Assembly (NCBI GenBank): GCA_964036665.1
Contig: OZ038527.1
Location: 15,035,835-15,099,834 of the forward strand
Length of the DNA: 64,000 nucleotides
Direction: 5' to 3'
Source: Gordius sp. MW1
Taxonomy: Eukaryota; Nematomorpha; Gordioida; Gordea; Gordiidae
The stretch's first letter is position 1. Each line of letters starts with the position of its first letter. Shown here piece by piece: positions 4,151 through 36,437 of this stretch. Both the position numbers and the translations under genes were made by a program. The notes under the pieces were generated by a model. The model had not been told where the DNA came from. It saw only the letters and a program-made list of their open reading frames with translations, and searched no databases.

Positions 4151-5180
4151 ATAAAGCTGTTAAGAACTAGTTCATTTTGAACTAGTTCACTTTTTTCTGA
4201 ACTTAGAACTTGACTAGTTACCTTCCAAAAAATACTGTGAACTTGAACTAGTTAGTTTTTTTAAGATTGAACTTAAACTAGTTATTTTTTTCAAATTCTG
4301 AACTTAAACTTGAACTATACAATATAATTGAGCTAGTTCATCACAAATATATTATTTAAAATAAATTTATAAGAGGAGTTATTGTTTGTATATGCATCAA
4401 CAATTTGACGTGCATTGTCTTCGCGGTAATCATACAGACATATAGTAACCGCGCATTTTTGATTTTAAAAACACAAAAAAGTTCTTGCTTGTTTTATTGT
4501 CAGCACTTAGTAAGATTTAGCTAATTAATGTGATTTATAAAAGCCTGTAATTTTTGCTCTGAAGTAGGTATAGGAACGAGTATAGAGGTGCATACTCACA
4601 ATGGTTTAGATTTCTTAGATATAAGACGTGATAATTCTAATAAAGAATTAATTGAAGACTATATTAAACTCAATAATACCTCATTTGATATATTTGATGA
4701 ATTTCCAAATCTAAAACATATTTTTATCAAATATTAGGCTTGTCTCCCATCTAGTGCTCCAGTTGAAAGACTTTTTAGTTTGGGAAAACTTATATTTGGA
4801 GATAAGCGTTCTTATTTATTAAATGATAATTTTGAAAACAATATTTTATTAAAGCCCAATTCACATCTACTTTTACATGATTTTTATTATAAATTATAAT
4901 TGTATATTGTTTTTAATAAAGATTTTAAACATTGTATAGTTGATGCTTTTGTCATATATGAATATTTCCTTAAATTAGATTTTCAAATATATAATTAATG
5001 AACTATAAAATTTATTTAAAATTGGATAGGATTCAAAAAAAAAAGATTTTATTCAGGAATCATTTCCTAAAACCCCTTGGATTTGATTTAAACTTTATCA
5101 TATTTAAAAAAATGAACTGAACTTTGAACTGAACTAGTTATTTTTGTAAAATTGAACTATTAACTTGAACTAACAGCTCT
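4151..5180 (+). mobile_element. hAT transposon relic with perfect 8-bp target duplication (copy 1, complete)
   Basis: Seen: identical octamers AATGACAT at 4143-4150 and 5181-5188 flank the element. The ends pair as AAAGCTGTTAAG on the left and AGAGCTGTTAG on the right (reverse complement). Both subterminal regions are packed with GAACTAGTTC/GAACTTGAAC repeats. Remains of a hAT transposase C-terminus lie inside at 4576-4899. The left breakpoint of the ~12.55-kb triplication (4227) falls inside this element, so copies 2 and 3 lack its first 76 bp. The flanks resemble the repeat at 51081-52057, so this hAT apparently jumped into an older repeat. Confidence 0.85.
4576..4899 (+). pseudogene. hAT transposase C-terminal remnant (copy 1)
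   Basis: One frame reads through DFLDIRRDNSNKELIEDY and FDEFPNLKHIFIKY, meets an in-frame TAG at 4735-4737, then continues LPSSAPVERLFSLGKLIFG and KRSYLLNDNFENNILLK to a stop at 4897-4899. Known: xSSAPVERLFS...G.....KRS.L....F is the hallmark of the hAT C-terminal dimerisation domain, which sits at the end of the transposase. The catalytic core upstream is absent, so this is an inactive, internally deleted derivative. The same relic recurs in both other copies of the unit. Confidence 0.85.
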
Positions 5181-5617
5181 AATGACATACTATTTTTTAT
5201 TATTCTTAAGGCTTGTAAGGGTGGGGCAAAAAGTCAATGAATTGCGCAGTTCCAGATTTTGACGTTTTAAGGATATCGGCAGAAGCGAGAGGGTCCTTGT
5301 TTTAGTGAGATAGCGAGTACACCGGAATGAAATCATATGCCAAACAAAATCCATGTTCTTAAAAAGCTAGCGTTTGACCATCAGATCTTTTGCTCGCATA
5401 AACCTCTTTGTTCATAGACTGTGGGTTTGAGGATAGAAAGGAAATTATCCTTGTTCAAAGATCTGTGGGTTTAAACATAGAAGAAAAACCATTTGTTAAA
5501 ATAGTGATGGTCAGCTTGCTTACAGCAGTACGGGGTAGGTAACGAGCATAATTGCAATTGCAGGGGAGTTCATTAGGTTTTTTATTATTATTACGCGTTA
5601 ACAAGTGGCGGCAATTA

Positions 5618-5870
5618 CAGCGTTTACCTAAACTTTTGCACTTCGTATTCCTCTCCTGCACACTAGTAGGAGAGAAAAGGGGCGTTTAACATGAATCGCT
5701 CATTCCTTCTCTCGCCTTCGCATGTAACACACTCCTTCCCCAACCTTACATGTTATTTTGCAACTCATACACCATATTTGCAATTTTTTATAAATTGGTC
5801 GTTTTTTGTATAAATTAGTGAATTTTTTTCAATTTTTTCTAGTACAGTTTAAATTAATTAAACTTAAATT
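5618..5870. repeat. Left arm of a long inverted repeat (copy 1)
   Basis: This arm is the reverse complement of 9049-9312 with roughly 94% identity by eye. Shared landmarks are CAGCGTTTACCTAAAC and CTGCACACTAGTAGGAGAG. The pairing continues past the HINE-like element A1 at about 7725-7800, so A1 was inserted into this arm. The arms enclose about 3.2 kb and may be the ends of a foldback or long-TIR transposon. Confidence 0.8.
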
Positions 5871-6095
5871 AATTGCTATGCAATTTATGGGCTCGTTTTT
5901 TGTTGTCCGTCCGTTGTCTGTCCGTCCGTTACCCTCCCTATCTATTTGCATTGGGTATATTAGGTTATCGCTTTTTTAAATTAATGCATGAGAAAGAGGT
6001 GCCCCACCCCTCATCTCTATCTCCCTCGCTGTGTTATTTTTAATTGCTATGCATACTATCTCCCGGTGTGTTATATATAAGATTTGTTAAATTAT

Positions 6096-6345
6096 CTATT
6101 ATATAAACATAAATAAAAGTTGGTTACTTTTAATTGCTATGCAATTTAACTAGTTATATAATAAACATAAATAAAAGTTGTTTACTTTTATTTGCTATGC
6201 AATTTAACTAGTTTTTGTTATATAATAAACATAGATAAAAGTTGTTTACTTTTAATGCTATGCAATTTAACTAATTATATAATAAACATAAATAAAAGTT
6301 GTTTACTTTTAATTGCTATGCAATTTAACTAGTTTTGGGGTTAGA
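6096..6345 (+). repeat. Minisatellite 1 of element A1 (~60-bp units)
   Basis: About four tandem units contain ATAATAAACATAAATAAAAG, then GTTGTTTACTTTTA and ATTGCTATGCAATTTAACTA. Each unit therefore repeats the core of the element's own 5' subterminal motif (ATTGCTATGCAATTTA). One further unit is embedded in the second array at about 6563-6620. Confidence 0.8.
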
Positions 6346-6353
6346 ATCCCGGA

Positions 6354-7320
6354 GTTTTTTTTGACTCTTATGATTGTTCTTGTTACTATCATTGATAATA
6401 AGAATTTTTGGCCGTCCGCTGGCTGCTGACCAATGAAAAAAATGACCATTGGCCAAAATGTGAATCGAAATTATTTTTTTCGTTTTTTTTGACTATTATG
6501 ATTGTTCCTGTTTCTACCATTGCTATTATGACTTTTTGGCCGTCCGCTGGCTGCTGACCAATGTTATATAATAAACATAAATAAAAGTTGTTTACTTCTA
6601 ATTGCTATGCAATTTAACTAGTTCTTGGGTTAGAATCCCGGAGTTTTTTTGACTCTTATGATTGTTCTTGTTACTATCATTGATAATAAGACTTTTTGGC
6701 CGTCCGTTGGCTGCTGACCAATGAAAAAAATGACCATTGGCCAAAATGTGAATCCGAGTTTATTTTTTCGTTTTTATTTGACTATTATGATTGTTCCTGT
6801 TACTACCATTGCTATTATGACTTTTTGGCCGTCCGCTGGCTCCTGACCGATGGAAAAAATGACCATTGGCCAAAATGTGAATCGAAATTATTTTTTTCGT
6901 TTTTTTTGACTATTATGATTGTTCCTGTTCCTACCATTGCTATTATGACTTTTTGGCCGTCCGCTGGCTGCTGACCAATGGAATAAAATGACCATTGGCC
7001 AAAATGTGATTCGAAAACTTTTTTTTCGTTTTTTTTGACTATTATGAATTTATATCCGCTTTACCGTGTCCTGGCTGCTGACCAATGGAAAAAAATGACC
7101 ATTGGCCAAAATGTGATTCGAAAATTTTTTTTTCGTTTTTTTTACTCTTATGAATGTATATCCACTTTTACCGTGTGCTGGCTGCTGACCAATGGAAAAA
7201 AATGACCATTGGCCAAAGTGAGCATCAAAATTTTTTTTTCCGTTTTTTTTGGCTATCATTGACTTATAGAGTATCTGTTGGTACTGACCAATATAGAAAA
7301 AGTGACCATTGGCCAAATTT
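6354..7320 (+). repeat. Minisatellite 2 of element A1 (~100-130-bp units with hairpin)
   Basis: Seven tandem units occur, each with GGCTGCTGACCAATGG, an A-run and ATGACCATTGGCC. CCAATGG and CCATTGG are complementary and can form a 7-bp hairpin. Units at the left carry TTTTTGGCCGTCCGCTGG. Units at the right carry TTTTACCGTGTCCTGG, so two subtypes are segregated along the array. Confidence 0.85.
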
Positions 7321-8111
7321 TTGATTTTTTTATTAAAAATTGTTCAAATTCAACAAAAAATTTCTCCCAACAATTCTGCAAATTCTTAACATTGTGTTGT
7401 TTTATAATATAATGTTTGTTAGACCCATAATCTCTAAAGGCCATAAAAACTAATGTAATACGCAACTAGATGCAAACACTAAATCTAACCCTAACCCTTG
7501 CCTTACATTTTGCCTATAATGGAAAATTTGTGTAAATAATTAATTAATCATTAGGCATTTAATACCCCCCTGTAGGCATTCTCGCCCCTTCCCACCTTTC
7601 TCGCCCATAAATTGCATAGCAAATATGATACATTTATACGAAGTACAGATGAGTCGTCCCCCCTTCCCTTCCCCTCTTCCCTTCCCTTCTCCCCCTTCCC
7701 ACGAGGGCCGAAGGCCCGAGTTTTTTTTTTAATGATCAATTTTTTTAATTTAAAGTTTATTCAACCTTAAAAATAAAATTTTGTCATGTATACGTTTATT
7801 GTCGAAAAAATAATGTAAAATACAATAAAATATGAATATTGTAAAACAAAAGAAATGCATGTAAATTTTAATAATCAATATATTCATTATTCAAACACGG
7901 GTCAATTATCTTTTTACATGGGAAAAATAGTTTCAACAATCTTCTGAAGTAATCTAACGATTAATGTACTATTATTGTATATGTAAAAATAATTTTATAA
8001 AATACCAAAATAATGAACAAATTTAGACGAGAAAAAAATTATGAAAGGCGCAGGGTCAGTTACAAGAGTTCCCAAAACACATTTAACAGTAAATAAGGGG
8101 TGAGGTACATG

Positions 8112-8817
8112 TAGAGCCTGCACGGGCCGCCTTAAGCTCGACCTTGCCCGAGCCCGGCCCGACCCGATTGGGCTTCGGGCCGGGCTCTGACAGAATTTAA
8201 TAAAACAATCGGGCCTCGGGTCGGGTTTGATGGGGCGGCCCGACCCGAGGCTCGAGCCCGGCCCGAATTGACTAAAGCAAACTTATTTTTTTAATAAAAT
8301 ATGATTTAAACTAACTCAACTCGATATTAAATAGTTATCTTCATACACCATACATAATATAGCTTCCAAACTTTAGCTTTTTCCCCCTGTCTATTAAAAT
8401 ATTTTGACCTAAATTGCTAATCGTATTGTAGTATTTAAATATATTTCTATAGCTGTTACTTTAGAAATAAAATAAGGAAATATTTTAAAAAGTTTTTTAT
8501 TTGGGACTGTTAGATAAAACATATTTTATAAAGTTAGATATCCAGTTTTAAATTATTAGCTAAATAAATTGTAGCGAGTGAAAATAAAATTTTATTCAAA
8601 CTTATCCCAGTTTTAAATTACGAGTAACAATTTAATGCAATTTATATGATAAAACAATTTTCAAAAATTTAAAAATAAATTTTTAAAATTTTCAATTTGA
8701 AAAATCGGGTTCGGGTCGGGCCAAAAAAAGTTGTTCGGGCTCGGGTCGGGCAAAATAACTGAGACGTCGGGCTCGGGCCGGGCTCGGGCAAAAAAAATTT
8801 CATTATGCAGGGCTCTA
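8112..8817. mobile_element. GC-ended hAT-like non-autonomous element (copy 1)
   Basis: The ends are TAGAGCCTGCA on the left and TGCAGGGCTCTA on the right, inverted with one base missing. Both subterminal regions are dense in CGGGC/GCCCG repeats (for example GGGCTCGGGCCGGGCTCGGG), around an AT-rich core without coding capacity. The flanking octamers are only partly alike (GGTACATG and GCTACGTA), so a target duplication is uncertain. Confidence 0.6.
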
Positions 8818-9048
8818 GCTACGTACATGCCACATGCCAAATAGGGAGACGGAAAGAGTTAGTGAAATTAGATTTTCATCCAGGAAATATACTATAATAT
8901 ACACCATGTTTTATTAAAGCCGTTAACAAAAAATTTACCAAAAAAATTATATAAATAATGAAAATCACGACAATAAACGTATACATGACAAAATTTCATT
9001 TTTAAGGGTGAATAAACTTTAAATAAAAAAAAATAGTCATTAAAAAAA

Positions 9049-9312
9049 TTTAAGTTTAATTAACTTAAACTATACTAGAAAAAATTTGAAAAATTTCACT
9101 AATTTATACAAAAAACGACCATTTTATAAAAAAGTGCAAAATATGGTGTATGAGTTGCTAAATAACATGTAAGGTTGGGGAAGGAGTGTGTTACATGCGA
9201 AGGGGAGAGAAGGAATGAGCGATTCATGTTAAACGCTATGATGATTACCCCTTTTCTCTCCTACTAGTGTGCAGGAGAAAAATACGAAGTGCAAAAGTTT
9301 AGGTAAACGCTG
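9049..9312. repeat. Right arm of the long inverted repeat (copy 1)
   Basis: Reverse complement of 5618-5870. It carries no HINE-like insertion and so shows the empty site: CTTAAATTTTTTTAATG on the minus strand, where the left arm has element A1. It has a few extra bases near 9238-9249 compared with the left arm. Confidence 0.8.
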
Positions 9313-9325
9313 TATAAGGCACAAG

Positions 9326-9483
9326 CATGGGTGTAGCCAGGGGGTGGCAGGGAGGGGCTGCTGCCCCCTTTAAAATAAAAATCCTTAAAGATTTAACATA
9401 ATTATGGCTAAAGTTTCAAATCATTTTGCCCCTCCTTGAGTCGTTATTGCCGCCCTCTAAATCCAATCATGGTTACGCCCATG
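9326..9483. mobile_element. 158-bp MITE with CATGGG(T/C)GTA ends (copy 1)
   Basis: Left end CATGGGTGTAGCC. The right end read in reverse complement is CATGGGCGTAACC. The interior is GC-rich at its ends (GGGTGGCAGGGAGGGGC). A related copy lies at 61008-61162. It sits just outside the right arm of the long inverted repeat. Confidence 0.6.
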
Positions 9484-9848
9484 GGCACGCACAAGGCACA
9501 TCGTCAAAGGCCTTCAGAAATGAGAATTTGTTACCAGATAATGTAGACCGAGGTTGTGGCTAGGAAAATCTCCAGCCCTCGGGTCCCTAACGTGATTAGC
9601 GTTTAATCCTCTGCAGAAGCGGCAATATAAAAAATTATAAGATCATGCCAACAATTTTGAGTGTTTGCTTCCAAGAAAAGATAGTGAACTTTGACAAAGT
9701 CCTTCCATATATGGAAGGTTTCAGGCTGTATAGTAAATGAGAAAATTAGATGATCATTTAATGGTTGCGATAAAAAGTTTTAAGGGAGATCGAAGCTAAT
9801 GAGTAGGGTAACCCCCTAATATTGTTGGGAGAGAGGAAACATTTATTA

Positions 9849-11400
9849 ATTGCTATGCAATTTATGGGCTCGTTTTTTGGTTGTCCGTCCGTTGTCCGTT
9901 GTCCGTTACCCTCCCTATCTATTTGCATTGGGTATATTAGGTTATCGATTTTTTAAATTAATGCATGAGAAAGAGGTGCCCCACTCCTCATCTCTATCTC
10001 CCTCGCTGTGTTATTTTTTAAATTAATGCATAAGAGGTGCCCCACCCCTCATCTCTATCTCCCTCGGTGTGTTATATATAAGATTTGTTAAATTATCTAT
10101 TATATAATAAACATAGATAAAAGTTGTTTACTTTTAATGCTATGCAATTTAACTAGTTATATAATAAACATAAATAAAAGTTGTTTACTTTTTAATTGCT
10201 ATGCAATTTAACTAGTTTTGGGGTTAGAATCCCGGAGTTTTTTTGACTCTTATGTTTGTTCTTGTTACTATCATTGATAATAAGAATTTTTGGCCGTCCG
10301 CTGGCTGCTGACCAATGTTATATAATAAACATAAATAAAAGTTGTTTACTTTTAATTGCTATGCAATTTAACTAGTTTTTGGGTTAGAATCCCGGGTTTT
10401 TTTGACTCTTATGATTGTTCTTGTTACTATCATTGATAATAAGACTTTTTGGCCGTCCGTTGGCTGCTGACCACTGAAAAAAATGACCATTGGCCAAAAT
10501 GTGAATCCGAGTTTATTTTTTCGTTTTTTTTGACTATTATGATTGTTCCTGTAACTACCATTGCTATTATGACTTTTTGGCCGTCCGCTGGCTCCTGACC
10601 GATGGAAAAAATGACCATTGGCCAAAATGTGAATCGAAAATATTTTTTTCGTTTTTTTTTGACTATTATGATTGTTCCTGTTCCTACCATTGCTATTATC
10701 ACTTTTTGGCCGTCCGCTGGCTGCTGACCAATGGAATAAAATGACCATTGGCCAAAATGTGATTCGAAAACTTTTTTTTCGTTTTTTTTGACTATTATGA
10801 ATTTATATCCACTTTTACCGTGTCCTGGCTGCTGACCAATGGAAAAAAATGACCAATGGCCAAAATGTGATTTGAAAATTTTTTTTTCGTTTTTTTTACT
10901 CTTATGAATTTATATTCACTTTTACCGTGTCCTGGCTGCTGACCAATGGAAAAAAATGACCATTGGCCAAAGTGAGCATCAAAATTTTTTTTTCCATTTT
11001 TTTGGCTATCATTGACTTATAGAGTATCTGTTGGTACTGACCAATAGAGAAAAAGTGACCATTGGCCAAATTTTTGATTTTTTTAATTAAAAATTGTTCA
11101 AATTCAACAAAACATTTCTCCCAACAATTCTGCAAATTCTTAACATTGTGTTGTTTTATAATATAATGTTTGTTAGACCCATAATCAATAAAAACTAATG
11201 TAATACGCAACAAGATGCAAACACTAAATCTAACCCTAACCCTTGCCTATATTACATTTTGCCTATATCATTTTGCCTATAATGGAAAATTTGTATAAAT
11301 AATTAATTAATCATTAGGCTTTTAATACCCCCCTATAGGCATTCTCGCCCCTTCCCACCTTTCTCGCCCATAAATTGCATAGCAAATATGATACATTTAT
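9849..11400 (+). mobile_element. HINE-like element A2, 3'-truncated (copy 1)
   Basis: It has the same 5' end and minisatellites as A1, and the 3' subterminal inverted repeat is present at about 11368-11387. The sequence then stops matching at about 11400, before the pyrimidine tract and hairpin. It is followed directly by TTAATTGCTATGCAATTG, which looks like the start of another copy. A2 therefore lacks the family's 3' terminus. Confidence 0.7.
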
Positions 11401-12388
11401 ATTAATTGCTATGCAATTGATATTAGTTCTAACAAACTTATTAGGCCTCGTCATGAAAGAACACTAAAGAGGAACAAAAGCTATGCATGATTCTCGGAAT
11501 TTAAAAAACAATTTGTAATTAGAAATATACGCTTGGTGCGCGGGGAGGTGTTAAAAAGACTTTTTATATAAGATAATTAACGAGTATGGTTTAATGTCAC
11601 CGATTGGCGTTCCAAGTGGAGTTAATGAGGAAAGAGGAATTTCTTTGTAAGGGATAAGATGCTGGCTGCTGATGAATGTCGTAGAGATCAAATTTAGGTT
11701 GAGCGGAAAGAGCGTCTCGAGAGTTCGATACGCCCGTGGTCAGATTACCTTAAGGTTAAATTATTCCTAGGGGTTTAATACCTAGGCAAAACAGCAGTGG
11801 CCATAATGGGATGTCTTGCTGAATACCGTCAGCAGAGTTTATGATATATATTCTTTAAATTGTAAAATGGAAACAATTTAACATGCATTAAGAAAGGCTA
11901 TATCAATTTAGGCAACTATTGAGAAATTTCGGGCGGTAATCCATTCCAAGTGCGTTTGAAGCTATTTCGCCTCCTCCAGACTTGAATTGCGCTATAGCGC
12001 GGATTTCCACAGCTTGGTTTTTGATCCGCATATTTTACATTTAGCGCTTAGTCTGCCAAGAATATAGTCCAAACCTGTTCGGTGTATCAGAGGTCATATT
12101 TGTTTAAACATTTTTACCCTAACCCGCCCCGGTCTAATTTTTTAACTAAATTTCCCGCCCGGGCCCGATTTCTAAGTGACTGCCCGTCCATTACCGAATC
12201 GTAAAAGCTGCCCGAACAGCCCAGCCCGATTTGATGATTTTTTTTAATTTTCTGACAGAATTTTCGTTATACTTTACAAGAATTTTAAATCTAATTCTCG
12301 ATTTTTTCTTGTAAATAACTACCATTAATAAATATCATTCAATTAATTAAAAAAAATGTATAAAATAATACATAAAAAAATTATATAC
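11401..12388. other. Unassigned stretch, includes a GC-rich hAT-like terminus
   Basis: 11440-12050 has balanced composition and may be a decayed repeat; I recognise no family. At about 12120-12240, repeats such as CCCGCCCGGGCCCGA resemble the GC-rich termini of the hAT-like elements. A possible partner end lies at about 15288-15360. Copies recur in the other two units, partly lost in the gap of copy 3. Confidence 0.35.
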
Positions 12389-12491
12389 TACGCCTGTGGA
12401 TTTCGAATCGAATATTTTAAGTATTCGATTCGTATTCGAGACTTTTATTTAAAAAAATATTCGATTCGAAATTCGTCGAATATTAAAAAAA

Positions 12492-14644
12492 CTCGGGCCT
12501 TCGGCCCTCGTGGGAAGGGGGAGAAGGGAAAAGGAGTAGGGGAAGGGAAGAGGGGAAGGGGGAACTCTTCTATACTCCGTATAAACGTAGCATATTTGCT
12601 ATGCAATTTATGGGCGAGAAAGGTGGGAAGGGGCGAGAATGCCTATAGGGGGTATTAGATGCAAAATAATTAGTTAATTAGTTATAGGCCCTTGTAGGGG
12701 AGGACATAGGGTAATTATCAATGTTAACCAATTCAAAAACGAACAAAAAAATTCGATTTATTTGGCCAATGGTCATTTTTTTATTGGTCAGTAGCCAGCG
12801 GACGGTCAAAAATTCATATTATCATTGGTATTAACATGAACAAATATTAATTTAATTTAAAAAAATTTAAAAAAAAAATTTTCCCCTCCCTGACTTGAAC
12901 CCCACACCTCCAGTTCACAAGCCGGCGCTATAACCACTATACCATGGTGGCTTTAAAATAGTTGAAGTTATTATGTTATTTATATAGATAATGAAATAAT
13001 AAAGTTGTGTTTTATGTTTAGAAAATCAATATATTTCGTCGGTCAGTAGCCAGCGGACGGTCAAAAAGTCATATTATCAATGGTATTAACAAAAACAAAA
13101 TATTAATTTAATGTAAAAAAAAAATTAAAAAAAAAAGTTTTTTTTTAGTTTTAAAAAAGGGCTAAATTCTTAAACTACCAGCCCGATTCGCTCGAAACTT
13201 TACCCGTAGGTGCCCAGGGCGGCCGGGGGTAAAATAATCTTTTCAGATTCCTAAAATACCTTTTCATTTTAAAAATATCGGACATTTCCCTGCCACACGT
13301 GCGGTGTAATATCTATGACACGTATAAAAATTTTACTAATTATATAAACTTACGCGCGCCATCTAATAAAGTACAATTCGTGTTTGAGTTTAATAGTAGA
13401 TTCAATTTAATTAGAAATAACGGGCTATGATTATACCTTTGAAGGAGGTTTCGAATTTTGTGTTAGTTTCTATCGATATATTTTATCGTAAATTAGAATC
13501 TAATACCTATATTATTTTTTTAAATATTATAGGTTTTCTATGAAATCACAATCTAATTAAATGAAATATATTAACCCAATAAAAAAATATATAAGCATTT
13601 ATAAGGTTAAAAATATATATTACATAGTTGGCTGTCAGTTAGACCATCTATAATAAATTTTTAGGTTATATATAAAATTTGGCCAATGTTCATTTTTTTC
13701 ATTGGTAAGCAGCCAGGACACGGTAAAAGTGGATATAAATTCATAAGTCAAAAAAAACGAAAAAAAAAATTTTCGAATCACATTTTGGCCAATGGTCATT
13801 TTTTCCATTGGTCAGCAGCCAGGACACGGTAAAAGTGGATATAAACTTATAATAGTCAAAAAAAAACTAAAAAAAATTTTCGAATCACATTTTGGCCAAT
13901 GGTCATTTTTTTCCATTGGTCAGCAGCCAGGACACGGTAAAAGTGGATATAAATTCATAATAGTCAAAAAAAAACTAAAAAAAAATTTTCGAATTACATT
14001 TTGGCCAATGGTCATTTTTTTCCATTGGTCAGCAGCCAGGACACGGTAAAAGTGGATATAAATTCATAATAGTCAAAAAAAACGAAAAAAAAAATTTCGA
14101 ATCACATTTTGGCCAATGGTAATTTTTTTCCATTGGTCAGCAGCCAACGGACGGCCAAAAAGTCATAATAGCAATGGTAGTAACAGGAACAATCATAATA
14201 GTCAAAAAAAAACGAAAAAATAAACTCGGATTCACATTTTGGCCAATGGTCATTTTTTCATTGGTCAGCAGCCAGCGGACGGCCAAAAAGTCTTATTATC
14301 AATGATAGTAACAAGAACAATCATAAGAGTCAAAAAAAACTCCGGGATTCTAACCCCAAAACTAGTTAAATTGCATAACCAAAATTTAAATATAGATATA
14401 CTTATGCATTAATTTAACGTAGCAATTAAAACCCGACCCCGCCCGAAAGCGAGGGAGATAGAGATGAGGGGTGGGGCACCTCTTGATAGAGATGAGGGGT
14501 GGGGCACCTCTTTCTCATGCATTAATTTAAAAAAGCGATAACCTAATATACCCAATGCAAATAGATAGGGAGGTAACGGACAACGGACAACGGACGGACG
14601 GACGGACGGACACCAAAAAACGAGCCCATAAATTGCATAGCAAT
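12492..14644 (-). mobile_element. HINE-like element A3, inverted, with internal extra sequence (copy 1)
   Basis: Read on the minus strand it starts with ATTGCTATGCAATTTATGGG at 14644. It has six or more units of minisatellite 2 between 14330 and 13680, then about 900 bp not found in A1. That extra part includes a tRNA-like sequence and two lone repeat units. It ends with the GGGCC-GAA-GGCCC hairpin at the 12492 end and a T-run. It lies inside a hAT-like element (12389-15238). A1 and A3 face each other in opposite orientation within each unit. Confidence 0.7.
12884..12953 (-). ncRNA. Degenerate tRNA-like sequence (A and B boxes) inside A3, copy 1
   Basis: Minus strand: TGGTATAGTGGTTA matches a pol III A box. 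GGTTCAAGTC, about 31 nt further on, matches a B box; that is tRNA-like spacing. The acceptor, anticodon and T stems do not pair convincingly, so I do not call a working tRNA. It may be a tRNA pseudogene or the head of a SINE caught in the element. Confidence 0.4.
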
Positions 14645-15238
14645 TAATAAGGATTCGAATTCGATTCAAATATTTTTCAAGTTTCTTTAACTCTTAAATA
14701 TCGAATTAAATTGATTTTAACAATTTAAAAATTTATTCAAAACGCAAAGGTTGAATATAAAAATATTAAAGGCGAAAAGGATAAAGTATCGATATTCCTA
14801 AAACAATGAAGAATTGTTTAGACAGTTTTCTATTTGATCCTAAACCTTTAACTTATTTTCTTCTTCAGTAAATATAAAAATAACATTAAACATTAAATAG
14901 CGGTTAACCTAAAATGTTAGCAAAAATATTGGAAATTTTTTGGAAGTTGAACCCCATATTACATGTAAAAAGCTATTTTCAATATATTTTGTGTACGCTT
15001 ATAAAATTTAAATTTCGTGATCGGGGAAAATAACTAATTTGCGGAAAGACGAACACAGCTTAATTATTTTCGTCTTGTTATATTAAAATAACTATAAAGT
15101 AAAATTCATTTTTCAAATACCTTTTTCAAGATTCGATTAGGATTTTCGAATCTCATCAGTTAAATATTCGATTCGAAATTTGGACCTAAGGATTCGAAAT
15201 CGGTCCAAAATTTGAATCGAGTATTTCAAAGAGGCGTA

Positions 15239-16797
15239 TAATATACTTTATAAATAAATCTCGGTAAGTCCTTGCCAGAATTTATTTTATGGTGCACGCC
15301 CGGACCTGCCCAAAAATCTAAATTTAGGGCAGGTGCAGGGCCGGCCCATGGGTCGTGCATTTTGGGGTTCTTAAATACCACCATCTCAGTTATTAATTTA
15401 TAGTGGGGCGAAAAAATAAAAGGCTACATTTAGGGCACTAGACCTTTTTCTTAAGTTAATGAGGTTGGTGGGAGTGCACAAGAAAAGTCTAAAGTGGTCT
15501 AGATGAGATAGTTCTATAATGTGCGCTGCGCGTAGGCTGTTGAGTCCTGCCTGTGTCAAAGAGCGCTGAAAATATTAATTGTTGTAGGAACTTCTATGGT
15601 TTAGCGGAGAAATCTTGAAGGACTTGATGAATTGGATTGGTTAAAAGTAGGTTAGGCAAGTGAGCGTTTAGCAATTAGTGATTTTAGCGCATAGTTGTTG
15701 TCAGGCGATGTTTTATTATTTACCTTAAACTTAAGAGGTGATAGAGTTTGTATGTGGTTATAGCGATGGGTCACCTATATTTTGCCAATTTGTTACACGG
15801 GTTTTTATACTTACCCTTTACATCGACCCATTCACCTAAATAGTCATGATTGTATTAGGGAGACCGTAAGGCACATATGCCAGGTTGTTAAGAGATTTTG
15901 TTTTATCATTTATTGACGAATGAGTTTTGATCATTTAAAAAAAATGTAAAATGGAATTAAAGAATATAAGAATCTCATAGGATAGGATTAGTTGAAGATA
16001 CTAGCTGTGAGATTGAATTCATTGGAATGGAATATGTAGGAGAATTATATAGCATAAAGCTAGAACTTTAGCTAATATCTTTTATCCTTAAAACTTTCGT
16101 TATATTTAGCCAATAAAATGTTTTTTTAATAAATGCATTCTTTAAATTTTATATACAGAAAGGAAAAATGCATTTATATATTCTAAACAATTCACAATAG
16201 TGTTAAAATATAACCGTTTAGAATTTATATTTCAGGTTTGTCTAAAAATCTTTTATGTTACTATTTATCTAAAATGAACAAACCGTGATCGAGGTGATTT
16301 AGATTTCAGCTTTACCATACCCAAATAACTTTTAAAGTAATTTGAGAAGGTCACATTAATTGTCACAAAAATTTACCTACCATAAGCGTGACATCAAATC
16401 ACGGCTTAGTCGTCACTTACCTAGCCAAAAAATTTTTGTTATCAGACAAGTGCATCACTTCCTAGATACATAAGCAGTCCTTGTAGGGTATTAACCCTAA
16501 GGCGCTAAAAAATCACACTATTACAAATTGTCTAAATGAATGAGACATGTTAAAGTATGCCTTTAAATGTACACATTACTAATTATATAAATATTCCATG
16601 ATCTTATATAAAATCTTGTTTTAACAAAGTCATACTTCAAAATGCTTTATTTGTAAAAAAATAGGCTTTGTCTTTATCGTCAAAAATCGATAACGAAGTT
16701 CACAACTTGTACATGTTTAGAATTTTGAGTAAAATTCGATTGATAAAAATAACGACACAATCGTTGTCAAACTTGGAAACGCCGTTAAAAATTCAAT
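15239..16797. other. Unassigned end of the unit (copy 1)
   Basis: It contains a short stem-loop (ACCTGCCC and GGGCAGGT around a 15-nt loop, about 15310-15340) within a GC-rich patch. The remainder is AT-rich DNA with no gene or element that I recognise. It recurs at 27787-29345 and 34877-36437. Confidence 0.4.
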
Positions 16798-25041: not shown

Positions 25042-27192
25042 CTCGGGCCTTCGGCCCTCGTGGGAAGGGGGAGAAGGGAAGGGGAGTAGGGGAAGGGAAG
25101 AGGGGAAGGGGGAACTCTTCTATACTCCGTATAAACGTAGCATATTTGCTATGCAATTTATGGGCGAGAAAGGTGGGAAGGGGCGAGAATGCCTATAGGG
25201 GGTATTAGATGCAAAATAATTAGTTAATTAGTTATAGGCCCTTGTAGGGGAGGACATAGGGTAATTATCAATGTTAACCAATTCAAAAACGAAAAAAAAT
25301 TTCGATTTATTTGGCCAATGGTCATTTTTTTATTGGTCAGTAGCCAGCGGACGGTCAAAAATTCATATTATCATTGGTATTAACATGAACAAATATTAAT
25401 TTAATTTAAAAAAATTAAAAAAAAAATTTTTCCCCTCCCTGACTTGAACCCCACACCTCCAGTTCACAAGCCGGCGCTATAACCACTATACCATGGTGGC
25501 TTTAAAATAGTTGAAGTTATTATGTTATTTATATAGATAATGAAATAATAAAGTTGTGTTTTATGTTTAGAAAATCAATATATTTCGTCGGTCAGTAGCC
25601 AGCGGACGGTCAAAAAGTCATATTATCAATGGTATTAACAAAAACAAAATATTAATTTAATGTAAAAAAAAATTAAAAAAAAAAGTTTTTTTTTAGTTTT
25701 AAAAAAGGGCTAAATTCTTAAACTACCAGCCCGATTCGCTCGAAACTTTACCCGTAGGTGCCCAGGGCGGCCGGGGGTAAAATAATCTTTTCAGATTCCT
25801 AAAATACCTTTTCATTTTAAAAATATCGGACATTTCCCTGCCACACGTGCGGTGTAATATCTATGACACGTATAAAAATTTTACTAATTATATAAACTTA
25901 CGCGCGCCATCTAATAAAGTACAATTCGTGTTTGAGTTTAATAGTAGATTCAATTTAATTAGAAATAACGGGCTATGATTATACCTTTGAAGGAGGTTTC
26001 GAATTTTGTGTTAGTTTCTATCGATATATTTTATCGTAAATTAGAATCTAATACCTATATTATTTTTTTAAATATTATAGGTTTTCTATGAAATCACAAT
26101 CTAATTAAATGAAATATATTAACCCAATAAAAAAATATATAAGCATTTATAAGGTTAAAAATATATATTACATAGTTGGCTGTCAGTTAGACCATCTATA
26201 ATAAATTTTTAGGTTATATATAAAATTTGGCCAATGTTCATTTTTTTCATTGGTAAGCAGCCAGGACACGGTAAAAGTGGATATAAATTCATAAGTCAAA
26301 AAAAACGAAAAAAAAAATTTTCGAATCACATTTTGGCCAATGGTCATTTTTTCCATTGGTCAGCAGCCAGGACACGGTAAAAGTGGATATAAACTTATAA
26401 TAGTCAAAAAAAAACTAAAAAAAATTTTCGAATCACATTTTGGCCAATGGTCATTTTTTTCCATTGGTCAGCAGCCAGGACACGGTAAAAGTGGATATAA
26501 ATTCATAATAGTCAAAAAAAAACTAAAAAAAAATTTTCGAATTACATTTTGGCCAATGGTCATTTTTTTCCATTGGTCAGCAGCCAGGACACGGTAAAAG
26601 TGGATATAAATTCATAATAGTCAAAAAAAACGAAAAAAAAAATTTCGAATCACATTTTGGCCAATGGTAATTTTTTTCCATTGGTCAGCAGCCAACGGAC
26701 GGCCAAAAAGTCATAATAGCAATGGTAGTAACAGGAACAATCATAATAGTCAAAAAAAAACGAAAAAATAAACTCGGATTCACATTTTGGCCAATGGTCA
26801 TTTTTTCATTGGTCAGCAGCCAGCGGACGGCCAAAAAGTCTTATTATCAATGATAGTAACAAGAACAATCATAAGAGTCAAAAAAAACTCCGGGATTCTA
26901 ACCCCAAAACTAGTTAAATTGCATAACCAAAATTTAAATATAGATATACTTATGCATTAATTTAACGTAGCAATTAAAACCCGACCCCGCCCGAAAGCGA
27001 GGGAGATAGAGATGAGGGGTGGGGCACCTCTTGATAGAGATGAGGGGTGGGGCACCTCTTTCTCATGCATTAATTTAAAAAAGCGATAACCTAATATACC
27101 CAATGCAAATAGATAGGGAGGTAACGGACAACGGACAACGGACGGACGGACGGACGGACACCAAAAAACGAGCCCATAAATTGCATAGCAAT
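25042..27192 (-). mobile_element. HINE-like element A3 (copy 2)
   Basis: Same as 12492-14644, including the tRNA-like sequence. Confidence 0.7.
25433..25502 (-). ncRNA. Degenerate tRNA-like sequence (copy 2)
   Basis: Identical A and B boxes to 12884-12953; the stems do not pair well. Confidence 0.4.
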
Positions 27193-29345
27193 TAATAAGG
27201 ATTCGAATTCGATTCAAATATTTTTCAAGTTTCTTTAACTCTTAAATATCGAATTAAATTGATTTTAACAATTTAAAAATTTATTCAAAACGCAAAGGTT
27301 GAATATAAAAATATTAAAGGCGAAAAGGATAAAGTATCGATATTCCTAAAACAATGAAGAATTGTTTAGACAGTTTTCTATTTGATCCTAAACCTTTAAC
27401 TTATTTTCTTCTTCAGTAAATATAAAAATAACATTAAACATTAAATAGCGGTTAACCTAAAATGTTAGCAAAAATATTGGAAATTTTTTGGAAGTTGAAC
27501 CCCATATTACATGTAAAAAGCTATTTTCAATATATTTTGTGTACGCTTATAAAATTTAAATTTCGTGATCGGGGAAAATAACTAATTTGCGGAAAGACGA
27601 ACACAGCTTAATTATTTTCGTCTTGTTATATTAAAATAACTATAAAGTAAAATTCATTTTTCAAATACCTTTTTCAAGATTCGATTAGGATTTTCGAATC
27701 TCATCAGTTAAATATTCGATTCGAAATTTGGACCTAAGGATTCGAAATCGGTCCAAAATTTGAATCGAGTATTTCAAAGAGGCGTATAATATACTTTATA
27801 AATAAATCTCGGTAAGTCCTTGCCAGAATTTATTTTATGGTGCACGCCCGGACCTGCCCAAAAATCTAAATTTAGGGCAGGTGCAGGGCCGGCCCATGGG
27901 TCGTGCATTTTGGGGTTCTTAAATACCACCATCTCAGTTATTAATTTATAGTGGGGCGAAAAAATAAAAGGCTACATTTAGGGCACTAGACCTTTTTCTT
28001 AAGTTAATGAGGTTGGTGGGAGTGCACAAGAAAAGTCTAAAGTGGTCTAGATGAGATAGTTCTATAATGTGCGCTGCGCGTAGGCTGTTGAGTCCTGCCT
28101 GTGTCAAAGAGCGCTGAAAATATTAATTGTTGTAGGAACTTCTATGGTTTAGCGGAGAAATCTTGAAGGACTTGATGAATTGGATTGGTTAAAAGTAGGT
28201 TAGGCAAGTGAGCGTTTAGCAATTAGTGATTTTAGCGCATAGTTGTTGTCAGGCGATGTTTTATTATTTACCTTAAACTTAAGAGGTGATAGAGTTTGTA
28301 TGTGGTTATAGCGATGGGTCACCTATATTTTGCCAATTTGTTACACGGGTTTTTATACTTACCCTTTACATCGACCCATTCACCTAAATAGTCATGATTG
28401 TATTAGGGAGACCGTAAGGCACATATGCCAGGTTGTTAAGAGATTTTGTTTTATCATTTATTGACGAATGAGTTTTGATCATTTAAAAAAAATGTAAAAT
28501 GGAATTAAAGAATATAAGAATCTCATAGGATAGGATTAGTTGAAGATACTAGCTGTGAGATTGAATTCATTGGAATGGAATATGTAGGAGAATTATATAG
28601 CATAAAGCTAGAACTTTAGCTAATATCTTTTATCCTTAAAACTTTCGTTATATTTAGCCAATAAAATGTTTTTTTAATAAATGCATTCTTTAAATTTTAT
28701 ATACAGAAAGGAAAAATGCATTTATATATTCTAAACAATTCACAATAGTGTTAAAATATAACCGTTTAGAATTTATATTTCAGGTTTGTCTAAAAATCTT
28801 TTATGTTACTATTTATCTAAAATGAACAAACCGTGATCGAGGTGATTTAGATTTCAGCTTTACCATACCCAAATAACTTTTAAAGTAATTTGAGAAGGTC
28901 ACATTAATTGTCACAAAAATTTACCTACCATAAGCGTGACATCAAATCACGGCTTAGTCGTCACTTACCTAGCCAAAAAATTTTTGTTATCAGACAAGTG
29001 CATCACTTCCTAGATACATAAGCAGTCCTTGTAGGGTATTAACCCTAAGGCGCTAAAAAATCACACTATTACAAATTGTCTAAATGAATGAGACATGTTA
29101 AAGTATGCCTTTAAATGTACACATTACTAATTATATAAATATTCCATGATCTTATATAAAATCTTGTTTTAACAAAGTCATACTTCAAAATGCTTTATTT
29201 GTAAAAAAATAGGCTTTGTCTTTATCGTCAAAAATCGATAACGAAGTTCACAACTTGTACATGTTTAGAATTTTGAGTAAAATTCGATTGATAAAAATAA
29301 CGACACAATCGTTGTCAAACTTGGAAACGCCGTTAAAAATTCAAT

Positions 29346-30300
29346 AAAAAAATACTGTGAACTTGAACTAGTTAGTTTTTTTAAGATTGAACTTAAACTA
29401 GTTATTTTTTTCAAATTCTGAACTTAAACTTGAACTATACAATATAATTGAGCTAGTTCATCACAAATATATTATTTAAAATAAATTTATAAGAGGAGTT
29501 ATTGTTTGTATATGCATCAACAATTTGACGTGCATTGTCTTCGCGGTAATCATACAGACATATAGTAACCGCGCATTTTTGATTTTAAAAACACAAAAAA
29601 GTTCTTGCTTGTTTTATTGTCAGCACTTAGTAAGATTTAGCTAATTAATGTGATTTATAAAAGCCTGTAATTTTTGCTCTGAAGTAGGTATAGGAACGAG
29701 TATAGAGGTGCATACTCACAATGGTTTAGATTTCTTAGATATAAGACGTGATAATTCTAATAAAGAATTAATTGAAGACTATATTAAACTCAATAATACC
29801 TCATTTGATATATTTGATGAATTTCCAAATCTAAAACATATTTTTATCAAATATTAGGCTTGTCTCCCATCTAGTGCTCCAGTTGAAAGACTTTTTAGTT
29901 TGGGAAAACTTATATTTGGAGATAAGCGTTCTTATTTATTAAATGATAATTTTGAAAACAATATTTTATTAAAGCCCAATTCACATCTACTTTTACATGA
30001 TTTTTATTATAAATTATAATTGTATATTGTTTTTAATAAAGATTTTAAACATTGTATAGTTGATGCTTTTGTCATATATGAATATTTCCTTAAATTAGAT
30101 TTTCAAATATATAATTAATGAACTATAAAATTTATTTAAAATTGGATAGGATTCAAAAAAAAAAGATTTTATTCAGGAATCATTTCCTAAAACCCCTTGG
30201 ATTTGATTTAAACTTTATCATATTTAAAAAAATGAACTGAACTTTGAACTGAACTAGTTATTTTTGTAAAATTGAACTATTAACTTGAACTAACAGCTCT
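29346..30300 (+). mobile_element. hAT relic, left end missing (copy 3)
   Basis: Corresponds to 4227-5180; transposase remnant at 29696-30019. The left end is removed by the unit boundary. Confidence 0.85.
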
Positions 30301-30737
30301 AATGACATACTATTTTTTATTATTCTTAAGGCTTGTAAGGGTGGGGCAAAAAGTCAATGAATTGCGCAGTTCCAGATTTTGACGTTTTAAGGATATCGGC
30401 AGAAGCGAGAGGGTCCTTGTTTTAGTGAGATAGCGAGTACACCGGAATGAAATCATATGCCAAACAAAATCCATGTTCTTAAAAAGCTAGCGTTTGACCA
30501 TCAGATCTTTTGCTCGCATAAACCTCTTTGTTCATAGACTGTGGGTTTGAGGATAGAAAGGAAATTATCCTTGTTCAAAGATCTGTGGGTTTAAACATAG
30601 AAGAAAAACCATTTGTTAAAATAGTGATGGTCAGCTTGCTTACAGCAGTACGGGGTAGGTAACGAGCATAATTGCAATTGCAGGGGAGTTCATTAGGTTT
30701 TTTATTATTATTACGCGTTAACAAGTGGCGGCAATTA

Positions 30738-30990
30738 CAGCGTTTACCTAAACTTTTGCACTTCGTATTCCTCTCCTGCACACTAGTAGGAGAGAAAAGG
30801 GGCGTTTAACATGAATCGCTCATTCCTTCTCTCGCCTTCGCATGTAACACACTCCTTCCCCAACCTTACATGTTATTTTGCAACTCATACACCATATTTG
30901 CAATTTTTTATAAATTGGTCGTTTTTTGTATAAATTAGTGAATTTTTTTCAATTTTTTCTAGTACAGTTTAAATTAATTAAACTTTAAAT
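30738..30990. repeat. Left arm of the long inverted repeat (copy 3)
   Basis: Same arm as at 5618-5870. Its partner falls in the assembly gap. Confidence 0.75.
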
Positions 30991-30992
30991 TA

Positions 30993-31686
30993 ATTGCTAT
31001 GCAATTTATGGGCTCGTTTTTTGTTGTCCGTCCGTTGTCTGTCCGTCCGTTACCCTCCCTATCTATTTGCATTGGGTATATTAGGTTATCGCTTTTTTAA
31101 ATTAATGCATGAGAAAGAGGTGCCCCACCCCTCATCTCTATCTCCCTCGCTGTGTTATTTTTAATTGCTATGCATAAGAGGTGCCCCACCCCTCATCTCT
31201 ATCTCCGGTGTGTTATATATAAGATTTGTTAAATTATCTATTATATAAACATAAATAAAAGTTGGTTACTTTTAATTGCTATGCAATTTAACTAGTTATA
31301 TAATAACATAAATAAAAGTTGTTTACTTTTATTTGCTATGCAATTTAACTAGTTTTTGTTATATAATAAACATAGATAAAAGTTGTTTACTTTTAATGCT
31401 ATGCAATTTAACTAATTATATAATAAACATAAATAAAAGTTGTTTACTTTTAATTGCTATGCAATTTAACTAGTTTTGGGGTTAGAATCCCGGAGTTTTT
31501 TTTTGACTCTTATGATTGTTCTTGTTACTATCATTGATAATAAGAATTTTTGGCCGTCCGCTGGCTGCTGACCAATGAAAAAAATGACCATTGGCCAAAA
31601 TGTGAATCGAAATTATTTTTTCGTTTTTTTTGACTATTATGATTGTTCCTGTTTCTACCATTGCTATTATGACTTTTTGGCCGTCC
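30993..31686 (+). mobile_element. HINE-like element A1, cut by the gap (copy 3)
   Basis: The 5' end, minisatellite 1 and the start of minisatellite 2 are present. The sequence runs into the N gap within a minisatellite unit, which is a typical place for an assembly to break. Confidence 0.7.
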
Positions 31687-31886
31687 NNNNNNNNNNNNNN
31701 NNNNNNNNNNNNNNNNNNNNNNNNNNNNNNNNNNNNNNNNNNNNNNNNNNNNNNNNNNNNNNNNNNNNNNNNNNNNNNNNNNNNNNNNNNNNNNNNNNNN
31801 NNNNNNNNNNNNNNNNNNNNNNNNNNNNNNNNNNNNNNNNNNNNNNNNNNNNNNNNNNNNNNNNNNNNNNNNNNNNNNNNNNNNNN
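31687..31886. other. Assembly gap (200 N)
   Basis: A run of exactly 200 N. Comparison with copy 2 implies about 5.66 kb of missing repeat sequence, so the N length looks like a placeholder and not a measurement. Confidence 0.98.
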
Positions 31887-32026
31887 TTTCTGACAGAATT
31901 TTCGTTATACTTTACAAGAATTTTAAATCTAATTCTCGATTTTTTCTTGTAAATAACTACCATTAATAAATATCATTCAATTAATTAAAAAAAATGTATA
32001 AAATAATACATAAAAAAATTATATAC

Positions 32027-34876
32027 TACGCCTGTGGATTTCGAATCGAATATTTTAAGTATTCGATTCGTATTCGAGACTTTTATTTAAAAAAATATTC
32101 GATTCGAAATTCGTCGAATATTAAAAAAACTCGGGCCTTCGGCCCTCGTGGGAAGGGGGAGAAGGGAAGGGGAGTAGGGGAAGGGAAGAGGGGAAGGGGG
32201 AACTCTTCTATACTCCGTATAAACGTAGCATATTTGCTATGCAATTTATGGGCGAGAAAGGTGGGAAGGGGCGAGAATGCCTATAGGGGGTATTAGATGC
32301 AAAATAATTAGTTAATTAGTTATAGGCCCTTGTAGGGGAGGACATAGGGTAATTATCAATGTTAACCAATTCAAAAACGAAAAAAAATTTCGATTTATTT
32401 GGCCAATGGTCATTTTTTTATTGGTCAGTAGCCAGCGGACGGTCAAAAATTCATATTATCATTGGTATTAACATGAACAAATATTAATTTAATTTAAAAA
32501 AATTTAAAAAAAAATTTTTCCCCTCCCTGACTTGAACCCCACACCTCCAGTTCACAAGCCGGCGCTATAACCACTATACCATGGTGGCTTTAAAATAGTT
32601 GAAGTTATTATGTTATTTATATAGATAATGAAATAATAAAGTTGTGTTTTATGTTTAGAAAATCAATATATTTCGTCGGTCAGTAGCCAGCGGACGGTCA
32701 AAAAGTCATATTATCAATGGTATTAACAAAAACAAAATATTAATTTAATGTAAAAAAAAATTAAAAAAAAAAGTTTTTTTTTAGTTTTAAAAAAGGGCTA
32801 AATTCTTAAACTACCAGCCCGATTCGCTCGAAACTTTACCCGTAGGTGCCCAGGGCGGCCGGGGGTAAAATAATCTTTTCAGATTCCTAAAATACCTTTT
32901 CATTTTAAAAATATCGGACATTTCCCTGCCACACGTGCGGTGTAATATCTATGACACGTATAAAAATTTTACTAATTATATAAACTTACGCGCGCCATCT
33001 AATAAAGTACAATTCGTGTTTGAGTTTAATAGTAGATTCAATTTAATTAGAAATAACGGGCTATGATTATACCTTTGAAGGAGGTTTCGAATTTTGTGTT
33101 AGTTTCTATCGATATATTTTATCGTAAATTAGAATCTAATACCTATATTATTTTTTTAAATATTATAGGTTTTCTATGAAATCACAATCTAATTAAATGA
33201 AATATATTAACCCAATAAAAAAATATATAAGCATTTATAAGGTTAAAAATATATATTACATAGTTGGCTGTCAGTTAGACCATCTATAATAAATTTTTAG
33301 GTTATATATAAAATTTGGCCAATGTTCATTTTTTTCATTGGTAAGCAGCCAGGACACGGTAAAAGTGGATATAAATTCATAAGTCAAAAAAAACGAAAAA
33401 AAAAATTTTCGAATCACATTTTGGCCAATGGTCATTTTTTCCATTGGTCAGCAGCCAGGACACGGTAAAAGTGGATATAAACTTATAATAGTCAAAAAAA
33501 AACTAAAAAAAATTTTCGAATCACATTTTGGCCAATGGTCATTTTTTTCCATTGGTCAGCAGCCAGGACACGGTAAAAGTGGATATAAATTCATAATAGT
33601 CAAAAAAAACTAAAAAAAAATTTTCGAATTACATTTTGGCCAATGGTCATTTTTTTCCATTGGTCAGCAGCCAGGACACGGTAAAAGTGGATATAAATTC
33701 ATAATAGTCAAAAAAAACGAAAAAAAAAATTTCGAATCACATTTTGGCCAATGGTAATTTTTTTCCATTGGTCAGCAGCCAACGGACGGCCAAAAAGTCA
33801 TAATAGCAATGGTAGTAACAGGAACAATCATAATAGTCAAAAAAAAACGAAAAAATAAACTCGGATTCACATTTTGGCCAATGGTCATTTTTTCATTGGT
33901 CAGCAGCCAGCGGACGGCCAAAAAGTCTTATTATCAATGATAGTAACAAGAACAATCATAAGAGTCAAAAAAAACTCCGGGATTCTAACCCCAAAACTAG
34001 TTAAATTGCATAACCAAAATTTAAATATAGATATACTTATGCATTAATTTAACGTAGCAATTAAAACCCGACCCCGCCCGAAAGCGAGGGAGATAGAGAT
34101 GAGGGGTGGGGCACCTCTTGATAGAGATGAGGGGTGGGGCACCTCTTTCTCATGCATTAATTTAAAAAAGCGATAACCTAATATACCCAATGCAAATAGA
34201 TAGGGAGGTAACGGACAACAACGGACAACGGACGGACGGACGGACGGACACCAAAAAACGAGCCCATAAATTGCATAGCAATTAATAAGGATTCGAATTC
34301 GATTCAAATATTTTTCAAGTTTCTTTAACTCTTAAATATCGAATTAAATTGATTTTAACAATTTAAAAATTTATTCAAAACGCAAAGGTTGAATATAAAA
34401 ATATTAAAGGCGAAAAAGATAAAGTATCGATATTCCTAAAACAATGAAGAATTGTTTAGACAGTTTTCTATTTGATCCTAAACCTTTAACTTATTTTCTT
34501 CTTCAGTAAATATAAAAATAACATTAAACATTAAATAGCGGTTAACCTAAAATGTTAGCAAAAATATTGGAAATTTTTTGGAAGTTGAACCCCATATTAC
34601 ATGTAAAAAGCTATTTTCAATATATTTTGTGTACGCTTATAAAATTTAAATTTCGTGATCGGGGAAAATAACTAATTTGCGGAAAGACGAACACAGCTTA
34701 ATTATTTTCGTCTTGTTATATTAAAATAACTATAAAGTAAAATTCATTTTTCAAATACCTTTTTCAAGATTCGATTAGGATTTTCGAATCTCATCAGTTA
34801 AATATTCGATTCGAAATTTGGACCTAAGGATTCGAAATCGGTCCAAAATTTGAATCGAGTATTTCAAAGAGGCGTA
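32027..34876. mobile_element. hAT-like element with TTCGAATCG repeats, split by A3 (copy 3)
   Basis: Same as 12389-15238. Confidence 0.65.
32130..34282 (-). mobile_element. HINE-like element A3 (copy 3)
   Basis: Same as 12492-14644, with the tRNA-like sequence at about 32521-32588. Confidence 0.7.
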
Positions 34877-36437
34877 TAATATACTTTATAAATAAATCTC
34901 GGTAAGTCCTTGCCAGAATTTATTTTATGGTGCACGCCCGGACCTGCCCAAAAATCTAAATTTAGGGCAGGTGCAGGGCCGGCCCATGGGTCGTGCATTT
35001 TGGGGTTCTTAAATACCACCATCTCAGTTATTAATTTATAGTGGGGCGAAAAAATAAAAGGCTACATTTAGGGCACTAGACCTTTTTCTTAAGTTAATGA
35101 GGTTGGTGGGAGTGCACAAGAAAAGTCTAAAGTGGTCTAGATGAGATAATTCTATAATGTGCGCTGCGCGTAGGCTGTTGAGTCCTGCCTGTGTCAAAGA
35201 GCGCTGAAAATATTAATTGTTGTAGGAACTTCTATGGTTTAGCGGAGAAATCTTGAAGGACTTGATGAATTGGATTGGTTAAAAGTAGGTTAGGCAAGTG
35301 AGCGTTTAGCAATTAGTGATTTTAGCGCATAGTTGTTGTCAGGCGATGTTTTATTATTTACCTTAAACTTAAGAGGTGATAGAGTTTGTATGTGGTTATA
35401 GCGATGGGTCACCTATATTTTGCCAATTTGTTACACGGGTTTTTATACTTACCCTTTACATCGACCCATTCACCTAAATAGTCATGATTGTATTAGGGAG
35501 ACCGTAAGGCACATATGCCAGGTTGTTAAGAGATTTTGTTTTATCATTTATTGACGAATGAGTTTTGATCATTTAAAAAAAATGTAAAATGGAATTAAAG
35601 AATATAAGAATCTCATAGGATAGGATTAGTTGAAGATACTAGCTGTGAGATTGAATTCATTGGAATGGAATATGTAGGAGAATTATATAGCATAAAGCTA
35701 GAACTTTAGCTAATATCTTTTATCCTTAAAACTTTCGTTATATTTAGCCAATAAAATGTTTTTTTAATAAATGCATTCTTTAAATTTTATATACAGAAAG
35801 GAAAAATGCATTTATATATTCTAAACAATTCACAATAGTGTTAAAATATAACCGTTTAGAATTTATATTTCAGGTTTGTCTAAAAATCTATTATGTTACT
35901 ATTTATCTAAAATGAACAAACCGTGATCGAGGTGATTTAGATTTCAGCTTTACCATACCCAAATGACTTTTAAAGTAATTTGAGAAGGTCACATTAATTG
36001 TCACAAAAATTTACCTACCATAAGCGTGACATCAAATCACGGCTTAGTCGTCACTTACCTAGCCAAAAAATTTTTGTTATCAGACAAGTGCATCACTTCC
36101 TAGATACATAAGCAGTCCTTGTAGGGTATTAACCCTAAGGCGCTAAAAAATCACACTATTACAAATTGTCTAAATGAATGAGACATGTTAAAGTATGCCT
36201 TTAAATGTACACATTACTAATTATATAAATATTCCATGATCTTATATAAAATCTTGTTTTAACAAAGTCATACTTCAAAATGCTTTATTTGTAAAAAAAT
36301 AGGCTTTGTCTTTATCGTCAAAAATCGATAACGAAGTTCACAACTTGTACATGTTTAGAATTTTGAGTAAAATTCGATTGATAAAAATAACGACACAATC
36401 GTTGTCAAACTTGGAAACGCCGTTAAAAATTCAATAA

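Follow-up and report, generated by a model that had tools for sequence, protein, structure and literature searches.

A 12.5-kb head-to-tail array in the genome of Gordius sp. MW1, with a shared breakpoint junction and a mosaic-like middle copy

The window analysed here is a 64,000-nucleotide stretch of the nematomorph Gordius sp. MW1 (contig C1, positions 15,035,835–15,099,834, in a genome of 211.8 Mb in 12 contigs), in which a segment of approximately 12.5 kb, mostly transposon-derived DNA, is repeated head to tail, the array starting at 4227 and ending at 36437. Judging from the sequence, the array is best read as a true tandem duplication, probably enlarged by unequal exchange, with a third copy likely, if unproven. 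The locus seems to record both steps in the birth of an array, namely a duplication by end joining, whose junction is still intact, and a subsequent exchange mapped to 1.5 kb. Duplications of this kind are known and ordinary, although the history of this one is unusually easy to read, and no new mechanism is involved.

Two complete copies and a divided third

Successive copies were offset by 12,572 and 12,548 bp. These offsets and the outer boundaries agree with an earlier prediction made from the sequence (hereafter the original prediction), and the assembly bore them out. The array is laid out as follows.

4227–16798, + strand: unit copy 1, complete, 12,572 bp
16799–29346, + strand: unit copy 2, complete, 12,548 bp
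29347–31686, + strand: copy 3, left end (2,340 bp of the unit start), stopping at the gap
31687–31886: assembly gap of 200 N, inside copy 3
31887–36437, + strand: copy 3, right end (4,551 bp of the unit end), from the gap into the right flank

As adjacent direct copies of more than 1 kb with more than 90% identity, copies 1 and 2 constitute a segmental duplication. Over 12,509 aligned bases, a similarity far above chance, they differed by 14 mismatches and 7 indels (including indels of 22, 15, and 61 bp), and the separate mutations of the two units amounted to approximately 0.15%. The direction of the larger indels was assessed with an anchor outside the indels, which was present in 9 of the 35 transposon-relative loci. 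Because both repeat units were kept in all nine anchored relatives, it is copy 1 that lost the 22 bp and copy 2 that lost the 61 bp. For the mismatches, 15 sites were tried, comprising 11 of the 14 that separate copies 1 and 2 and four in the right end of copy 3, with matches (hits) rather than loci as the unit of counting. Positions 12531 and 12532 were derived in copy 1 (7 of 7 matches), whereas 7145 (copy 1 base in 15 of 18 matches and a third base in three), 10650 (13 of 15, with the copy 2 base in one), and 11240 (10 of 10) were derived in copy 2. Position 8791 pointed to a change in copy 1 (four matches), the relatives carried a third base at 8370, and the other eight sites tried had no match. 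Since each copy carries mutations of its own, copies 1 and 2 are almost certainly two real units and not an assembly echo.

The third copy is of a different nature. The original prediction described a triplication of three nearly identical copies, but the third consists of two discontinuous sequence ends on either side of a 200-N gap, and approximately 5.7 kb of the unit (6546–12248 in copy 1 coordinates) is absent from it. Round runs of 200 N are typically scaffold filler, and copy 3 is therefore most likely the place where two contig ends meet. Because the gap divides this copy, the assembly does not establish the copy number; more generally, a scaffold cannot give the copy number of an array when contigs end inside it. 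Across 254,904 bases of genome loci retrieved in this work, many of them overlapping, no run of at least five N was present.

The junction and the first duplication

The features that define the junction are listed here.

4152–5181: non-autonomous hAT element, with 8-bp target duplications ATGACATA at 4144–4151 and 5182–5189
16798–16804, + strand: junction 1, TTCAAT + A-run + TACTG, with one base of microhomology
29346–29352, + strand: junction 2, the same as junction 1, inside a 5,322-bp exact match

The left duplication breakpoint, at 4226/4227, lies 75 bp within the hAT element, and at each junction the unit end TTCAATAA is fused to an A-run at this point. hAT elements are recognized by an 8-bp target duplication and short terminal inverted repeats; the element at 4152–5181 has ATGACATA on both sides and short terminal inverted repeats ending in TAAAGCTGTTA and TAACAGCTCTA. 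It contained no open reading frame (ORF) of at least 100 amino acids. Its family gave 36 matches outside the window at 87–96% identity among the 40 candidates scored of 476; this and the other repeat-copy counts are drawn from the top 40 scored candidates per search. The element is intact, with both 8-bp target duplications, in copy 1 only, and in copies 2 and 3 it is truncated and retains only the right-hand target repeat. Because only copy 1 has both target duplications, the hAT insertion predates the duplication, and copy 1 retains the original left context. Elsewhere in the window, a C-terminal fragment of a hAT transposase lies at 48051–48278 (− strand), just under the Pfam cut-off (20.9 versus 21.4 bits).

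The two junction regions were identical across 5,322 bp, including 28 homopolymers of at least 7 bases, and a 401-bp junction query, for which 40 of 476 candidates were scored, had full-length genome matches at two places, both of them within the window. The sequence thus upheld the prediction of an identical junction near 16798 and 29346 that lies within a hAT element and has one base of microhomology. When 300 bp on either side of each breakpoint was compared in both orientations with 200 shuffles, the breakpoints showed no similarity above the shuffles: the direct comparison scored 26 against a shuffle mean of 26.0 (99 of 200 shuffles as high), and the inverted comparison 23 against 25.5 (179 of 200). 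Related repeats, through which nonallelic homologous recombination could have produced the first duplication, were not found within these 300-bp flanks in either orientation. End joining is characterized by little or no homology between the breakpoints, and because only one base of microhomology and no other homology was present, the evidence points to end joining as the origin of the first duplication.

Transposons were also considered as the makers of the duplication, either by recombination between related elements at the ends of the unit or by tandem replication of a Helentron. The unit is rich in hAT copies and in non-autonomous Helentrons (HINEs), which would suit such an origin, but the junction lies 75 bp inside the hAT on one side and in array-only DNA on the other, at no element end, and the breakpoints share no homology. 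A junction derived from transposon ends or repeats was accordingly rejected, and the junction largely refutes a transposon-made duplication, which we regard as highly improbable. The HINEs here are passengers, and the junction falls at none of their ends.

The end-joined origin that we favor would have begun with two breaks, one inside the hAT and the other in unique DNA that lies downstream of a transporter gene (described below). These would have been joined through a single base of microhomology, either by end joining or by microhomology-based template switching between sister chromatids or homologues. The product would have been unit 1, junction, unit 2. The closest known case may be the CUP1 arrays of Saccharomyces cerevisiae, in which, according to passages of PMC4232551, the recurrent junctions have at most 3 bp of homology, the first duplication is attributed to non-homologous joining, and the array size changes through unequal crossover. 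As in those passages, the unit here would be set by a recurrent junction with minimal homology, with an end-joined origin and resizing by crossover. In contrast, the CUP1 units described there carry a metallothionein gene (Type 1, approximately 2.0 kb) and fall into five types among strains, whereas the present unit is 12.5 kb long, has no recognized gene, and is known from one genome only.

The mosaic middle copy and the number of copies

After the first duplication, the two units acquired the separate mutations seen between copies 1 and 2, and the distribution of these differences makes copy 2 look like a mosaic, copy-3-like on the left up to 13115 and copy-1-like on the right from 14580. 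Over the parts of copy 3 that are assembled, copy 2 matched copy 3 and differed from copy 1 at 6056, 12531/2, 12744, 12751, 12878, and 13115 (6 of 6 kept sites), and it matched copy 1 and differed from copy 3 at 14580, 14779, 15511, 16252, and 16327 (5 of 5 kept sites). A single switch in 11 kept informative sites corresponds to 1 of 462 orders. Its location can be given as follows.

13116–14580 (copy 1 coordinates): putative exchange or assembly switch, overlapping the minisatellite core of an inverted HINE

Seven rows were left out of the site test (12868, 13966, 5864, 6062, 6163, 6355, and 6474). Position 12868 is private to copy 2, differs from the right end of copy 3, and lies beside a homopolymer; position 13966 is a 1-bp run difference that was left out though it agrees with the switch. 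Mismatch density also differed, at 18 per 12,572 where the comparison was expected to be old and 1 per 6,886 where it was expected to be young (Fisher P 0.0036, with the copy-2-private site 12868 counted on both sides), which fits two ages. In their left parts, copies 2 and 3 aligned over 2,338 bases with five 1-bp indels and no mismatch.

Under an unequal exchange, misaligned copies would have undergone homologous crossover, in which unit 2 on one chromatid exchanged with unit 1 on another within the interval matching 13116–14580. The middle copy would then have taken its left part from unit 2 and its right part from unit 1, and the array would have three or more copies. Beside the left flank the native neighboring sequence persists over one full unit, and beside the right flank over at least the 4.55 kb assembled.

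Several observations weigh against this account. The mosaic statistics were computed after the pattern had been noticed, and an assembly switch predicts the same mosaic as an unequal crossover. The five remaining rows left out (5864, 6062, 6163, 6355, and 6474) are 1-bp indels private to copy 3, at which copy 2 agrees with copy 1 although they fall on the "wrong" side of the switch. Should these indels be real, a single switch no longer accounts for the pattern, though all five lie no more than 702 bp from the gap, where the consensus is expected to be weakest. The region 4227–7144 holds none of the 14 mismatches between copies 1 and 2 (P 0.004), which one crossover fails to explain. As for the end-joined origin, at least one base of microhomology is expected by chance with P 0.48 for random breakpoints.

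The assembly switch deserves to be spelled out, as it would leave two units only. The assembler would have walked through unit 1, the junction, and the left part of unit 2, returned to unit 1, gone through the junction a second time, and ended there, and the next contig would be the true right part of unit 2. The contig does end in the third copy, at the 200 N and approximately 5 kb past the switch, the order of the mosaic is exactly what such a switch would give, and the junction regions, with their 28 long homopolymers, are identical. This identity fits a crossover and an assembly switch alike. On the other hand, the stretch without informative differences is approximately 1.5 kb, which is short for long reads, and by reasoning alone, crossing one junction twice needs reads that were used twice or that truly came from two places. 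Copy 2 also differs from the right end of copy 3 at 12868, though beside the homopolymer. Because the difference-free stretch is so short and the double crossing needs reads from two places, we favor the crossover, and consider two units only to be unlikely, if still worth taking seriously. The original prediction had taken copy-specific indels as an argument against an assembly echo, and this argument stands for copy 1 versus copy 2, which differ by the 22-, 15-, and 61-bp indels and 14 mismatches and carry derived changes each. It fails for copy 3, with its five private left-side indels close to the gap and its identical junction region, because a recent exchange and a re-traversal by the assembler would both give such identity.

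The opposite departure, an array of more than three copies, would add to the unequal exchange and is compatible with it, as the gap could conceal near-identical middle copies that reads do not distinguish. The sequence breaks within the array, the left parts of copies 2 and 3 hardly differ, and arrays altered by unequal crossover vary in number in the cases covered by the passages of PMC4232551; the length of the gap is uninformative. We regard this as a reasonable possibility that falls short of an even chance, and three or more copies in all as quite likely. The simultaneous formation of all copies, by rolling-circle replication or re-replication of a unit circle, would also be expected to give identical junctions. 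It appears improbable, since mismatch density differs approximately ten-fold across the switch, which implies two ages, and the flanks are ordered as at a single-copy locus.

Misaligned homologous exchange in a tandem array alters the repeat number, as was shown genetically for Bar. A misaligned exchange here would likewise change the repeat number, with the difference that it is read from a mosaic copy for which an assembly error is possible. Bar-type unequal crossing over in Drosophila is also named in a passage of PMC4232551. Near-identity of the copies had been predicted to reflect a recent event or ongoing homogenization; a recent head-to-tail duplication agrees with our results, and homogenization does so only in the form of one putative exchange. 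It is a long shot that the array is still changing and that the HINE minisatellite core (13678–14339, copy 1) is a preferred site of exchange; if so, dispersed Helentron minisatellites would serve as sites of recombination through which ordinary duplications grow into arrays.

Contents of the unit, its neighbors, and other loci

The HINEs of the window and the longest array-only stretch are as follows.

5868–7733, + strand: HINE TR1, with subterminal inverted repeat, tandem repeats, and palindrome
9837–11420, + strand: HINE TR2, without the 3′ palindrome end
12481–14651, − strand: HINE TR3, inverted, with the minisatellite core at 13678–14339 in copy 1
56443–58305: fourth HINE, outside the array, with the same features as the unit HINEs
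15240–16798, + strand: 1,559 bp, with genome matches at the three array places only (40 of 639 candidates scored)

All four HINEs carried the 20-bp subterminal inverted repeat TTGCTATGCAATTTATGGGC and core tandem repeats, and the 3′ palindrome GGGCCGAAGGCCC followed by T was present in three of the four, TR2 being without it; T-rich flanks were noted by eye and uncounted. Subterminal inverted repeats, core tandem repeats, a 3′ palindrome, and a T-rich insertion site are the HINE features given in passages of PMC4067079 and PMC7492417. Because the shared features match those, TR1–TR3 and the element at 56443–58305 are classified as HINEs on their sequence anatomy, which TR1–TR3 share with the HINE/DINE-1 non-autonomous Helentrons described there. 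HINE copies were dispersed through the genome at 92–98% identity, and further repeat families contribute pieces within 5616–9315 and the stretch 14659–15238.

The unit had been predicted to consist of nested transposons, which fits most of it but neither 15240–16798 nor approximately 0.65 kb at 11421–12075, whose matches were limited to the two complete copies (40 of 979 candidates scored). Because these two stretches matched array copies only, the unit probably includes approximately 2 kb of low-copy DNA, and 15240–16798 is probably low-copy host DNA. An alternate haplotype placed elsewhere in the assembly was rejected, as 15240–16798 matched the three array places only among the 40 of 639 candidates scored.

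No host gene was recognized in the unit by ORF, Pfam, Rfam, and tRNA searches, in line with the original prediction, and short exons could have escaped. All unit frames of at least 100 amino acids lay within HINEs or at their edges; three of these frames had no Pfam match above the cut-off, and a fourth had a PAN_3 match under it. The stretch 15240–16798 had no frame longer than 61 amino acids, and the unit had no Rfam match at the gathering score and no tRNA. On these results, the possibility that the unit carries a host gene or an RNA gene was rejected, and nothing found points to a function of the array.

The nearest gene lies outside the unit.

36904–38985, − strand: monocarboxylate-transporter-like (SLC16/MFS) ORF, matching MFS_1 and solved monocarboxylate transporters

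Its stop codon, TAG at 36901–36903, lies 463 bp from the unit end, close to the predicted distance of approximately 460 bp from an SLC16-like stop. Farther along the window, 44792–47538 contains remnants of an integrase-bearing element (rve, 44792–45031) and a reverse transcriptase (RVT_1, 46551–46814), and 54146–54376 (− strand) is an exon of a PP28 phosphoprotein gene. At the left window edge, 66–344 (+ strand) has a weak match to a ricin-type lectin domain, under the Pfam cut-off.

At other loci in the genome, a search for five pure TTAGG repeats, which skips common simple repeats, found two places, both internal stretches of mixed TTAGG, TTAGGG, and TTGGG units at C6:3773184–3780620. When inspected by eye, the COX1-bearing record C12, presumed mitochondrial, contains several short inverted duplications along with a run of a tandem 11-bp unit upstream of COX1, which reflect either an unusual mitochondrial genome or an assembly fault. 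Nuclear COX1-like copies occur at C4:356383–379815 and 1458719–1486890, with 22-kb and 27-kb spacing, on opposite strands, approximately 1.1 Mb apart, and with identical scores, and they possibly represent a large inverted duplication of nuclear mitochondrial DNA.

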